Below, one piece after another: positions 4,923 to 9,045 of a stretch of 36,173 bases of DNA (its first letter is position 1; each line of letters begins with the position of its first letter). The translations under genes and the position numbers were made by a program. Under the pieces are notes generated by a model. The model was not told where the DNA came from, did not search any database, and worked only from the letters and a program-made list of their open reading frames with translations. Source of the DNA: a virus; IMG/VR virus record IMGVR_UViG_3300022074_000154, positions 1 to 36,173 of that record; one strand, 5' to 3'.

Positions 4923-7310
4923 TTAAATTACCGCCTTTCTTGCTGCTCTGCCGATAGACTTTTCAACCTGAACATCAAAAAGATCAGCAAATTTCTTATT
5001 ATCAAATTTGATATTGATTCCTGTTTCGCCGCCATTACCACTATTATTGACTATAGTGCTGCTAGTTGCATTCTTGATGGCTGTGTTGTTCGCAATAACA
5101 GGGGCAGTTGCTCTCATTGTCGCTGCTGTCTTAGCGGAAGCATCGCCTATGCCCTCTACTCCCGCCGCAGTCATTTGAACACCAGCAATCAAGTTGTTAT
5201 CACCCGAGAATAATTCTCCTCTGAAGCCGCTCATTTTAGCTTTAAGTTTATCAACAGAGCCCATGGCAGAGCTAGAAGAATCATCAACCATTGACAAACC
5301 AGATGCCATTTGTGATAACCCTTCCAACAAAGTGGGTGAGCTTTTATCTACACTAATTGATTTTCTGAAGAATGTGAATGCTCCTGTTACCTCCCCGATG
5401 ACAGATACAATTTTGCCAAATAGGGCAGCTAAACCAAGAATTATTCCACTCAAAATTATGAGCGGGGACATCGCCATTCCAACACTGAGTGCGATCAGAG
5501 GGAAAAACTCTACGAATCCCTTGAACAGACCTTGTATTTCGTCTTTATATTCCAAAATGATTTCTGAAAAATAATTTGTTAGTTCCCCAATCATCTCAAT
5601 CATTGGCTTCATTACTGGCACTAGAGAAGCAAAAGTATTTTTTAGTTGTTCTTGAACAGATTGTAATTCTCTTGCGCGTTTAGCTGATGCTTCAAAGTCT
5701 GCCTGTGTTTTTCCAATTTCTGCACCAACTGCGCCAAAGTCACCACTCATAGCAAGAGCGAGTTCTCCAACATCTGCCATACCTGCAGCATCTGCAAAGA
5801 ACATCTTTTGGCGGTATGACATTTCATCAAATGACAATCCAGTGTCAAGTATGGAATCTCTTATCATTTCAAAACGCTCAACTGGGTTTGTTGCAGTCAT
5901 TAATTCCATAGCGTTTACAAAGTTGCCACCAAGTGCGGCATTCAACTTTCCTGCTTGTTTGGCAGCACCTTCAAAAGTATCAAACTTTTCAGTTATTGCC
6001 AGAAGTCTAGAAACCTCAATACCTGTTGCCTTTGAAACAACAGAAAGTTGTTTAAATGCCTGTAATGCTTCTGGCCCAGAAAGTTTTTGTAAGTGGGCTG
6101 AGGCTCCTGCAAAATCGGCTCCCATTTTAGCCGTGCTTACATTTAGATCACGAGCTATAGCATCTAACTCCAGCATGGTATCTGCCGCCTGCTGTGGTGT
6201 TTGAGAAAAAGCCTTCGTTAACACTTGGAATCCCTTCGCTGTGTCATCAGCAGACATGCCCAACTTACCAAGGACAACTGTGGTATCTTTTATTTTTGAT
6301 GCGCTTGTAGTGTTTAACATACTAAAGTCTGTAAAAGTTGCATTTAATGCTGTAACGGCATTATTGATATCTTCTGAAGTGCCTCCAAATTCTCTTAAGG
6401 CGTCAGCGTTTTCATGCATTGCATGTGAGAAATCTTTAGATAAGCCTGTTACTTTTGTTAATTGTCTTGCAGAATTTTCAAGCTCAAGGGCAAATTGTGC
6501 TATCTTGACCGTAACTCCTATAGCGACTGCCAGAGCAATGAGCATCGGAAGAACAATAAACAGCGCTGCCCCCAATGCCGCCAAAGCTGCGCCGGCACCT
6601 CCAATGGAGGCTGCAAATCCTGACATTGCTGCACCTGCGCCGCCGGTGCCTGTTCCTGCTGCTGCGGATACTTCTGGAAGTTTTTGTCCTATTTTAGCCA
6701 AAGAAGAAATAAATTTTTCTTTTTGTTCTTGGAACATCTTGTTACCAATAGGCTTAATTGAGTTTGCTAGACCCTTTCCTATTTGTTTAAACCCGCTAAC
6801 AAAATCGCCGCTGGCTATACTTTTTAGTCCTCCCTCAATTTGATCTACAGTTTGTTTTGCTTCTTGGAGGCTTTTATTATATTCTTCACTAGCATCTGTT
6901 AGATCTTTATTTGCTTTTTTTAAATTTTTAATATTATTTAAAATTTCCGAATAGGCAGCGTCTTCTTCATCTAGATATTGTAATTGTTTTTCTAGTTGCC
7001 TTATTCTAGTATTATTTACTTCTTCAGCTAGTCTATATTGTTTTTCAATGTTTTTTTCTTTATTAAACAATTCTTCAGCTAATTCATTTTGCTGTGCCAG
7101 ACGAGAAAGAATTTGTTCTCTTTTGCTTATCTCTTTGCCAAGGGCAACGGCGACCTCCCCAGCAACCGCAGCGAGTTCTGAAGAATTTTTTAAGGTTTCA
7201 ATCGTTGCCGTGCTAGCCGATTCAAGCTCTCGCCTTAGTTTGCTGGCACTAGGGGCGGCTGCATCTAAAGCATCTAATAGGTTTGTTATTTCTTCTGGTG
7301 TCAGCGCCAT
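4923..7310 (-). CDS. Tail tape measure protein
   Basis: A 795-residue protein with typical tape measure architecture. A long coiled coil rich in Glu, Lys and Gln covers about residues 25-160. A Gly/Ala-rich, strongly hydrophobic segment covers about 215-270, alternating helical segments follow, and a second hydrophobic stretch lies at about 595-640. Tape measures fill the tube lumen, set tail length and may later cross the host envelope through their hydrophobic segments. It follows the candidate tail assembly chaperone pair, the usual order in lambda-, P2- and Mu-type tails. T4 gp29 is 590 aa, so a somewhat longer tail than T4 would be expected from length alone. A terminator and a TATTTATA-type motif lie just upstream, suggesting its own transcript start. 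Ribosome binding site GGGAGAGG precedes the ATG. Confidence 0.8.
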   Translation of the reverse strand: MALTPEEITNLLDALDAAAPSASKLRRELESASTATIETLKNSSELAAVAGEVAVALGKEISKREQILSRLAQQNELAEELFNKEKNIEKQYRLAEEVNNTRIRQLEKQLQYLDEEDAAYSEILNNIKNLKKANKDLTDASEEYNKSLQEAKQTVDQIEGGLKSIASGDFVSGFKQIGKGLANSIKPIGNKMFQEQKEKFISSLAKIGQKLPEVSAAAGTGTGGAGAAMSGFAASIGGAGAALAALGAALFIVLPMLIALAVAIGVTVKIAQFALELENSARQLTKVTGLSKDFSHAMHENADALREFGGTSEDINNAVTALNATFTDFSMLNTTSASKIKDTTVVLGKLGMSADDTAKGFQVLTKAFSQTPQQAADTMLELDAIARDLNVSTAKMGADFAGASAHLQKLSGPEALQAFKQLSVVSKATGIEVSRLLAITEKFDTFEGAAKQAGKLNAALGGNFVNAMELMTATNPVERFEMIRDSILDTGLSFDEMSYRQKMFFADAAGMADVGELALAMSGDFGAVGAEIGKTQADFEASAKRARELQSVQEQLKNTFASLVPVMKPMIEMIGELTNYFSEIILEYKDEIQGLFKGFVEFFPLIALSVGMAMSPLIILSGIILGLAALFGKIVSVIGEVTGAFTFFRKSISVDKSSPTLLEGLSQMASGLSMVDDSSSSAMGSVDKLKAKMSGFRGELFSGDNNLIAGVQMTAAGVEGIGDASAKTAATMRATAPVIANNTAIKNATSSTIVNNSGNGGETGINIKFDNKKFADLFDVQVEKSIGRAARKAVI

Positions 7311-7337: not shown

Positions 7338-7356
7338 CTTCCTACAAAAAAGCAAA

Positions 7357-7373
7357 GGCACCTTTAGGGTGCC
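7357..7373 (-). terminator. Rho-independent terminator after chaperone-like gene
   Basis: On the minus strand a perfect 6-bp stem (GGCACC / GGTGCC) with a 5-nt loop is followed by TTTGCTTTTTTG. It lies immediately after the stop of the 95-residue frame and before the tape measure gene, separating the tube/chaperone genes from tape measure and baseplate genes. Confidence 0.8.
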
Positions 7374-7377
7374 CTAC

Positions 7378-7665
7378 TTAGAAGGTTTTTGGCATTGTTG
7401 GCTGATTTTGAGAGTTTAATGTTTGTCTTGTTCCGCCGCTACTTGATGATTGTTTGATCGCTTCTGCCTCATCTTCTAATTGTTTTATTGTTCTCTTTAC
7501 AAACCAGTTTCTGAGACCTATGGGAAGACTATAAGCCTCAGCAAAACTCCACCCGCCATTATACTTAAGAAAGAAAATCTGTTCATAGATTCCCTCGTTG
7601 TATTCATCGGTCAGGCCAAAAAAAGTCCGCCGTAAGCGGCACCTCCATTTCCTGCGTGTAATCAC
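7378..7665 (-). CDS. Candidate tail assembly chaperone extension (gp51-like position), possibly frameshift-expressed
   Basis: A 95-codon open frame overlaps the 3' end of the gp26-like gene by 62 nt in the +1 frame. From GLTDEY (residue 17) onward it looks like real protein: YEQIFFLKYNGGWSFAEAY, then LPIGLRNWFVKR, followed by a polar Ser/Gln-rich tail. The 16 residues before it are Arg-rich and look like a shadow of the other frame. The only in-frame start before GLTDEY is a GTG at 7665 with no good ribosome binding site. The two frames can be joined at a run of seven T (plus positions 7618-7624), giving a fusion of about 349 aa. It lies between tail tube and tape measure, the place of the G/GT chaperones of lambda and similar pairs in P2 and Mu. 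Alternatives are GTG initiation or a one-base assembly error. Confidence 0.6.
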   Translation of the reverse strand: MITRRKWRCRLRRTFFGLTDEYNEGIYEQIFFLKYNGGWSFAEAYSLPIGLRNWFVKRTIKQLEDEAEAIKQSSSSGGTRQTLNSQNQPTMPKTF

Positions 7666-8428
7666 AATTTTCGCAAGAGAACTCCTGTGTTAGATCGACA
7701 TTTGGCGTAGCCTTTTTGATCGCCAACCGAAGGTGGCGAGAGTCCATTGATGGAACATTGTTAGCGACATATTGTATAGCTTGACGAGAAGTGTCTCCAT
7801 TAACACTGACAATTAAAGACTCAAGCTGCTGAGATATTTGATTATCACTTTTAATAATTGAAGATAATTTATTTTCCTCTTGCCCCGTTAATAGTCTAGC
7901 AACAACTTCCACTTGAGTCTTTGGCAATCTGCAAGTTATTGTACCATTTGGGTTTATTGTTGCACGAAGGTTCTCGTTATCTTCACCATGATATACATGG
8001 GCAGAATTTAAATCAAAGGTGTATGTCTGCTTAGTGCCACACGCTGGGCACTGCACATTAGTAGAATAATCACTTCCATATCCAGATACTCGCGCCGCAA
8101 CAATAATTGCGTTGCGATCACCAATGAGTAAAGTTTTTGGATCAATTGTTTTATCAACAATAATACTTTGTATTAATCTTTCGAGAGCAACACCTTTCTT
8201 TAAAAGAGTTCTTGAAGTAAGAATATCTTCTTCTTTCGCAGTCATCTGCTTAATTTCAATAGAGTCTTTTCCATGAAGTGGATGCCCCTGTACATAAAAG
8301 CGACCCTGTGATGGTAGATCCACAAACTCTGTGGGGATCACAAACGAGAAGCCCCCGCCGCCCTGTTGGGGCGGAGGGCTCGTGTCAGGCTGTTGAACGC
8401 CGCCTAGGCGATCCTGATTTCTTGACAA
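7604..8428 (-). CDS. gp26-like baseplate/tail assembly protein with zinc-binding cysteines
   Basis: A 274-residue protein resembling the T4 baseplate protein family of gp26 (Pfam T4_baseplate, by recollection). Seen directly: a Pro/Gly-rich N terminus (residues 15-28), the entry segment IPTEFVDLPSQGRFY (31-45), a CPAC pair (127-130) and a CENC pair (252-255) that probably bind one zinc ion, and the C-terminal ending ADFFWPDR. T4 gp26 is 208 aa and acts in hub assembly. The position between tube and tape measure suggests a role as tail assembly chaperone. The start appears to be a rare TTG at 8428 with GAGGTG upstream; there is no nearby ATG in frame. A small inverted repeat brackets that ribosome binding site. 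Confidence 0.75.
   Translation of the reverse strand: MSRNQDRLGGVQQPDTSPPPQQGGGGFSFVIPTEFVDLPSQGRFYVQGHPLHGKDSIEIKQMTAKEEDILTSRTLLKKGVALERLIQSIIVDKTIDPKTLLIGDRNAIIVAARVSGYGSDYSTNVQCPACGTKQTYTFDLNSAHVYHGEDNENLRATINPNGTITCRLPKTQVEVVARLLTGQEENKLSSIIKSDNQISQQLESLIVSVNGDTSRQAIQYVANNVPSMDSRHLRLAIKKATPNVDLTQEFSCENCDYTQEMEVPLTADFFWPDR
7618..7624 (-). promoter_or_regulatory. Candidate +1 frameshift site (T7 run)
   Basis: On the coding strand seven T residues fall in the gp26-like frame as GAC TTT TTT TGG. Skipping one base changes the reading to GGC CTG ACC GAT GAA and enters the 95-codon frame. The normal frame ends five codons later at TGA (7606-7604). The tract is seen directly; frameshifting is inferred. 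Confidence 0.45.
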
Positions 8429-8453
8429 TTTACACCTCGCGTTTTATATTGTC
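8424..8453 (-). promoter_or_regulatory. Inverted repeat enclosing the ribosome binding site of the gp26-like gene
   Basis: GACAAT at 8453-8448 and ATTGTC at 8429-8424 (coding strand) can pair across an 18-nt loop containing GAGGTG and the approach to the TTG start. Pairing would hide the start codon. The stem is short and AT-rich, so this is only a possible translational brake. Confidence 0.25.
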
Positions 8454-8457
8454 TAAA

Positions 8458-9045
8458 TTAAATCTTGAAGAACTCGCGACCACCGGAAGCAACTGCCTTG
8501 GAGTCGTTAGTTGTTTCAATTCTAGCCCAGTCATAGCGAAGGGTGATTGAAACCTCTGTTAGATCGGAGTTACTGTAATCGAGTGAATCGCCATACTTGA
8601 TGTCCTGAATGAATGGGTTCCAAAGAGTCCAAGTCTCTAGTGGGTTGCCGTCAGAATCAATCTGGGTGACAGTTACGGCACCGAGAGCAGACGCCGCCTT
8701 AGCCTTTGACATAGTACCAAGAGTGGTAGTGTCAGTAGGAGGGGCGTAGCCACCCTGCACAATAATATCGGAAAAAGTCGCAGCCATATCAGGGTCAACA
8801 GGATCTACCATAGTAATAGTAACAGGGTTCCATGTTACACCACCGGGATAGTAAAAAGTATGGTTTAGATATTTGTGCTCATTCTCAGCTATTGCAAATG
8901 AGGGCTTAGCAGCAGTCTTGGCGTACCAAGCTACAGCGCCGCCGGGCGTGGCGTTTATACCACCAAACTCTACAATGAATCTGTGGTTTCTTTTTGGATC
9001 ATTTAGGGTTGCATCCTGTCCGAAGTTAGTTGACCAAAATGGCAT
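8458..9045 (-). CDS. 19: Tail tube protein (gp19)
   Basis: A 195-residue protein starting MPFWSTNFGQDATLNDPKR, followed by a FIVEFGG strand, the entry typical of T4 gp19-type tube proteins. Later features also fit: NHTFYYPGGVTWNPVTITMVDP, a TLWNPFIQDIKYG loop and the C-terminal EVSITLRYDWA strand, which in the family belongs to the beta-barrel tube subunit. Hexameric rings of this protein stack to form the inner tail tube. It follows the sheath gene, as in T4 (18 then 19), and has an AGGAG ribosome binding site. T4 gp19 is 163 aa, so this one has modest loop extensions. A hairpin between it and the sheath gene could set different expression levels. Confidence 0.92.
   Translation of the reverse strand: MPFWSTNFGQDATLNDPKRNHRFIVEFGGINATPGGAVAWYAKTAAKPSFAIAENEHKYLNHTFYYPGGVTWNPVTITMVDPVDPDMAATFSDIIVQGGYAPPTDTTTLGTMSKAKAASALGAVTVTQIDSDGNPLETWTLWNPFIQDIKYGDSLDYSNSDLTEVSITLRYDWARIETTNDSKAVASGGREFFKI

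Follow-up and report, generated by a model that had tools for sequence, protein, structure and literature searches.

The virus record IMGVR_UViG_3300022074_000154 is a genome fragment of 36,173 bases (hereafter the window, meaning the whole stretch that was analysed). Because it encodes a gp23-type capsid protein, a gp20-type portal and a T4-type prohead protease, we place it in the T4 supergroup. All genes of the part considered here lie on the minus strand, in the order tail sheath, tail tube, gp26-type protein with an overlapping second frame, and tape measure:

11986-9107, minus strand: tail sheath gene, given as context, upstream of the tube gene
8458..9045, minus strand: tail tube protein (phrog_4542, 1.5e-24; PF06841, 3e-4)
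8434..8438, minus strand: SD-like GAGGT, 5 nt before the TTG start, read from the sequence
7604..8428, minus strand: gp26-type protein, the putative zero-frame short chaperone, 274 aa from a TTG start (PF12322, 8e-19; phrog_150, 2e-19)
7378..7617, minus strand: +1-frame extension, predicted T-like domain, 79 aa plus stop (alignment of 25 loci, HMM and AlphaFold)
7345..7375, minus strand: terminator-like hairpin with a T run, between the extension and the tape measure gene
4923..7310, minus strand: tape-measure-like protein, 795 aa (from its position, length and weak coiled-coil-type matches)

The gp26-type gene therefore occupies the G/GT-type position between the tube and tape measure genes, and the same order of tube, chaperone and tape measure genes is found in Mel-JY01, immuto, LIS04 and SP-15. 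PF12322 matches its product with 68.6 bits against a cut-off of 24.5, over model positions 12-219 of 219. We folded the gp26-type part and the T-like domain separately by structure prediction. AlphaFold predicts the N part with a pLDDT of 85.9, and the resulting structure matches many predicted T4-type 'baseplate hub' proteins. Its top-probability PDB match is the HK97 tail assembly chaperone 2ob9 (0.80), with an E value of 0.42 that is below significance, and a sequence search of the PDB with the gp26-type profile gave no match.

Near its 3′ end the gp26-type gene runs into a homopolymer, and the zero frame at this junction reads GCG GAC TTT TTT TGG CCT GAC CGA TGA. The elements of the junction are as follows:

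7618..7624, minus strand: T7 slip run, TTT TTT T in the zero frame (sequence and relatives)
7618..7621, minus strand: minimal +1 shift tetramer, TTT_T (conserved as YTT_T in relatives)
7604..7606, minus strand: zero-frame stop TGA, four codons past the T7 run (sequence)
7611..7613, minus strand: TGA at which the -1 frame ends, immediately past the run (sequence)

Skipping one T gives TTT TTT GGC CTG ACC GAT GAA TAC, a +1 frame that stays open to the stop at 7380-7378 and reads FFGLTDEY...PKTF, for a predicted fusion of 349 aa. The sole start upstream of the site in this frame is a GTG at 7665, and no ATG follows until close to the extension's end. The sequence facts from which the initial annotation had argued for a frameshift here, namely the T7 run at 7618-7624, the frames, the stops and the GTG as the only other start, all hold on re-reading.

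The initial annotation had also proposed comparing the length of the T run in related genomes. In 79 of 80 IMG/VR relatives (59-95% identity to the gp26-type protein) we found the same T7 run and the same frame relation, the remaining locus being truncated. Together with two further scans and nine deposited phage genomes, these relatives supplied 246 junctions, of which 169 were non-redundant over 240 nt, extending to about 25% protein identity. Among these 169 junctions, which were located via the tetramer itself, with the distant phages L084, L085 and L087 that lack it set aside, YTT_T (the last shift codon plus the next base) is present in 169; the preceding base is T in 164 of the 169, and GG follows in 163. 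The full string TTT TTT TGG CCT occurs at 174 of about 200 distinct sites, and the rarer variants (TTT CTT TGG, CTT TTT TGG, TTC TTT TGG and TTT TTT TAC) all keep YTT_T, some of them with runs of just three or four T.

At codon level, 44 loci of less than 95% identity show no variation in T7GG, in either TTT codon or in the CCT that comes next, nor in the TTG start codon of the gp26-type gene; other conserved Phe codons of the same loci are a mixture of TTT and TTC. The first Phe codon of the site is TTT in 159 cases and TTC in 3, compared with 828:299 elsewhere in the genes (p = 3e-16). Conservation of GGCCT after the run is explained by coding in both frames (WP and GL), but the two TTT codons are not so explained. 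Judged by these comparisons, the putative recoding site is conserved far beyond chance.

The arrangement extends to cultured phages. A +1-frame extension is present in Microcystis phage Mel-JY01, immuto, Bacillus phage SP-15, LIS04 and GXN1; the corresponding site is TTC TTT CGT in Streptococcus phage GXN1 and TTT TTT CAC in SP-15, and CTT_T occurs exactly in the cultured Flavobacterium immuto phages and others. Among 16 matching contigs from bacterial or archaeal genome assemblies, mostly MAGs, 13 show the same arrangement. As a separate observation, two loci (L260 and L261) place the gene close to each end of a contig of 305,838 bases that carries the label Methylococcaceae bacterium TMED69, which would fit a large phage genome with redundant ends, and a third (L256) places it within a 2.85 Mb WOR-3 'chromosome'.

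The +1 frame can be entered from the T7 run by more than one route. A -2 shift, as in phage Mu, would reach the same frame as +1, yielding DFFFGL instead of DFFGL, with T7 permitting perfect -2 re-pairing of tRNA-Phe; moreover, the first TTT is conserved beyond what a +1 slip on the second codon needs. However, the CTT TGG and TTC TTT TGG variants would prevent clean -2 re-pairing yet keep YTT_T, and we consider a -2 shift improbable. Because the variants that break T7 retain YTT_T, we favour a +1 slip of the P-site tRNA over both a -2 shift and slippage during transcription.

Base variability across the relatives shows which frame is read on either side of the site. Base entropy peaks at zero-frame position 3 upstream of the site and at position 1 downstream, which corresponds to +1-frame position 3. 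This switch in codon-position phase indicates that the extension is translated in the +1 frame and that the T run is kept for its bases. Aligning 25 loci yields a conserved extension core, YxxGGxSxxExYxxPxxxRxxxxxxI. In 50 of 164 loci, the +1 frame contains no ATG, GTG or TTG before the end of the slip site, which excludes a separate gene in these relatives; in 25 loci a start is lacking all the way to 15 codons before the core. The phase switch, the alignment and the loci without a start together show that selection acts on the protein which the extension encodes in the shifted frame, and that the extension lacks a start of its own. Comparison thus demonstrates the conserved candidate recoding site, its frame and the coding of the extension.

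Two further features lie just upstream of the slip run:

7642..7646, minus strand: SD-like GGAGG motif, 20 nt ahead of the shift codon, conserved at the same position in 91/108 window-clade loci
7627..7639, minus strand: putative and tentative 4-bp stem CCGC-N5-GCGG, between GGAGG and the slip run, with all four pairs in 73/108

In the window clade, the Glu codon within GGAGG is GAG in 94 of 94 cases versus a background of 35%, and the Pro codon after it is CCG in 89 of 108 versus 13%. The motif is absent in the Mel-JY01 clade. For the putative stem, pairing is found in 85% of cells compared with 83.1% (s.d. 0.5) for shuffled partners, with some two-sided changes, and relatedness may explain it.

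GGAGG also bears on the possibility of two separate overlapping genes, in which the T-like protein would have its own start aided by this motif. Candidate starts do occur: the GTG at 7665 in the window, a +1-frame ATG located 11 nt ahead of the shift codon in 18 of 55 loci of the Mel clade and 3 of 108 of the window clade, and other-frame overlapping ATGs in LR756511 and Atu_ph07. Against this stand the 50 loci without any start, the conservation of the T run, which separate genes would leave unexplained, and the codons at initiation distance from GGAGG, which are mostly CGG, CTG, CCG or TTA; with no start codons at the right distance, we rejected GGAGG as the start signal of a separate T protein. 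We attach little probability to separate genes as the general explanation, and relatives with the ATG 11 nt before the shift codon may make an extra, separate T product.

Slippage of RNA polymerase on the T run, giving mRNAs short of one U, would produce the same fusion, and in the window clade the U7 run is preceded by the short GC-rich stem. Seven-base runs are short for polymerase slippage, however, and the arrangement is kept with only three or four T, so that this route seems very unlikely. A single-base error of assembly or sequencing within the run, with the true gene in one frame, was the main rival named in the initial annotation, as homopolymers are error-prone and this one is seven long, but it has essentially been eliminated: the same T7 run and frame relation recur in unrelated contigs, both independent IMG/VR records and MAGs, as well as in genomes deposited for cultured isolates, the broken-run variants show the same +1 relation, and the zero-frame WP and stop are conserved too.

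Public records miss or truncate the +1 extension for immuto gp232 and SP15_046, and the extension of Mel-JY01 is annotated as a separate hypothetical protein (WWT39326). Mis-annotated extensions lie at 4336-4446 of L083, 4255-4374 of L089, 4203-4419 of L088 and 4237-4473 of L082.

AlphaFold predicts a helix-turn-helix or helix pair for the extension, with helices at residues 4-21, 25-29 and 33-59; on this model the extension would be a small domain of helices, in a position corresponding to that of lambda T. Foldseek found no match to the T-like domain in the PDB. A T-domain HMM recovers the extensions of SP-15, LIS04, GXN1 and LR756508, and matches those of LR756511, CM1 and Atu_ph07 more weakly. 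Similarity to DUF6760 (PF20546) is weak: 16 of 23 extension members show it, with a best value of 2e-4, and the window extension scores 17.3 bits (E 0.005), short of the 27-bit cut-off. In Stenotrophomonas phage CM1 the extension is in the -1 frame, and in LR756511 and Atu_ph07 ATGs adjoin or overlap the gp26-type stop. In the distant jumbo-phage relatives L087, L090 and L086 it is the -1 frame that encodes the T-like domain; two of them have an ATG that overlaps or adjoins the gp26-type stop, and they represent a third arrangement of the pair.

Within the PF12322 family, T4 gp26 spans the whole domain and T4 gp51 consists of PF12322 plus 48 aa. T4 thus has two PF12322 genes, compared with one each in the other phages and contigs with a family match. 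Three relatives of 127-194 kb likewise carry one copy each and show no two-gene arrangement of the T4 type. At its cut-off the PF12322 model missed Mel-JY01 and immuto, where we found the gene by tblastn. The claim that T4 has no such pair, and that a frameshifted chaperone would be wholly new for the T4 group, was therefore too strong: gp26 and gp51 belong to the same protein family as the window protein and provide a short form and a C-terminally extended long form, from two genes with no shift, whereas the window has one gene with a shift. The T-domain HMM gives 0.2 bits against the T4 gp51 tail, too little to show a relation between the two; an hhalign comparison of the fused profile with T4 gp51 placed just a 43-column zinc-ribbon part. 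As the gp51 tail is not detectably homologous to the extension, gp26-GT-type is a better name than 'gp26-gp51 fusion'. One PF12322 gene with a shift and two without look like alternative routes to a short and a long form.

Vladimirov, Gautam and Davidson reportedly identified tail assembly chaperone genes in T4-like phages in 2022 (Virology 566:9-15). According to PMC5009743, the tail chaperone frameshift is conserved among long-tailed phages, T4 excepted, and that of the archaeal myovirus HSTV-2 is very likely +1. The lambda gpG/gpGT pair (Xu et al. 2004, reviewed in PMC5009743) also lies between the tail tube and tape measure genes but uses a -1 shift, whereas the window has a predicted +1 shift at YTT_T and an N protein of the T4 gp26 family. 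Closer in direction are the HF1-group haloviruses, for which a +1 shift with a UUU_CGN motif is predicted (PMC7230728); as in HSTV-2, it falls between tube and tape measure. The HF1-group motif, TTT-CGC, is from archaeal viruses and contains a TTT codon, and we liken it to the window site by its description; the GXN1 site, TTC TTT CGT, resembles UUU_CGN. Vandenendeviridae and Andersonviridae share contractile tails, a conserved T run near the TAC-N end and an extension before the tape measure gene, but differ in having a GTTTTT motif and the -1 direction (PMC12846349). Two sources concern T4-like phages themselves: one describes some of them as having a short gene plus a longer fusion copy that does not shift (PMC10885494), and the other attributes a report of poly-T -1 signals to Vladimirov et al. 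2022 (PMC12846349). The literature we searched, to which Vladimirov et al. 2022 did not belong, contained no description of a +1 YTT_T site in gp26-type genes. Frameshifted chaperones are a known kind and the T4 pair has been recognised as chaperones, so that the +1 one-gene form found here would be a variant not described before.

We conclude that the locus very probably encodes a G/GT-type tail assembly chaperone pair built on the gp26 (PF12322) family and produced by +1 programmed frameshifting. The earlier proposal of a +1 shift that fuses a tail chaperone extension onto a gp26-type protein has gained strong support from the tetramer shared by 169/169 junctions, the phase switch and the 50/164 loci without a start. 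Cellular activity of the site, how efficiently it shifts, the precise step of the tRNA and the role as a chaperone are inferred. The majority of ribosomes would stop at the TGA and release the short form of 274 aa. In a minority, the P-site peptidyl-tRNA-Phe, paired with the second TTT while the Trp codon TGG is in waiting, would slip one base forward on TTT_T and re-pair on TTT. The shifted ribosomes would then read GGC CTG and onwards, giving the 349-aa long form, which ends in the helical T-like domain. If lambda is a guide, the tape measure protein would be covered by the N part, with the T part bringing in tail tube subunits; in T4, gp26 as the short form and gp51 as the long form would serve the same need from two genes.

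The proposed slip shares its YTT_T tetramer with the CUU_U site of prfB, at which UUU counts among the codons next in slipperiness (PMC10885494). In prfB, however, a stop codon occupies the A site and an SD lies 3 nt upstream, whereas the window has TGG in the A site and its SD-like motif 20 nt away; an SD at the prfB distance is not present. When the 75 nt following the site were folded for 23 relatives, the mean z was -0.5 and no common stem emerged that could act as a downstream stimulatory structure. A broader scenario is possible, although we regard it as rather unlikely in its entirety: an undescribed +1 signal made of GGAGG, the short stem and TTT TTT_T GG would serve an extensive, uncultured T4-supergroup branch in making the long chaperone, the stem, once folded, would place GGAGG near enough to push the ribosome as in prfB, and the one-gene shifted form would be the older one, with T4 gp26/gp51 derived from its duplication.

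For annotation, the comparison restores an extension that public records lack, truncate or present as a separate hypothetical protein. It also supplies hundreds of natural variants for the study of +1 slippage without a stop codon. T4 has been listed as the exception to tail chaperone frameshifting (PMC5009743), yet the T4 supergroup genomes described here would shift, in the uncommon +1 direction and with a very well conserved bacterial signal. Their single shifted gene can be linked to the two-gene solution of T4, and the two look like alternative ways to the same short and long pair.
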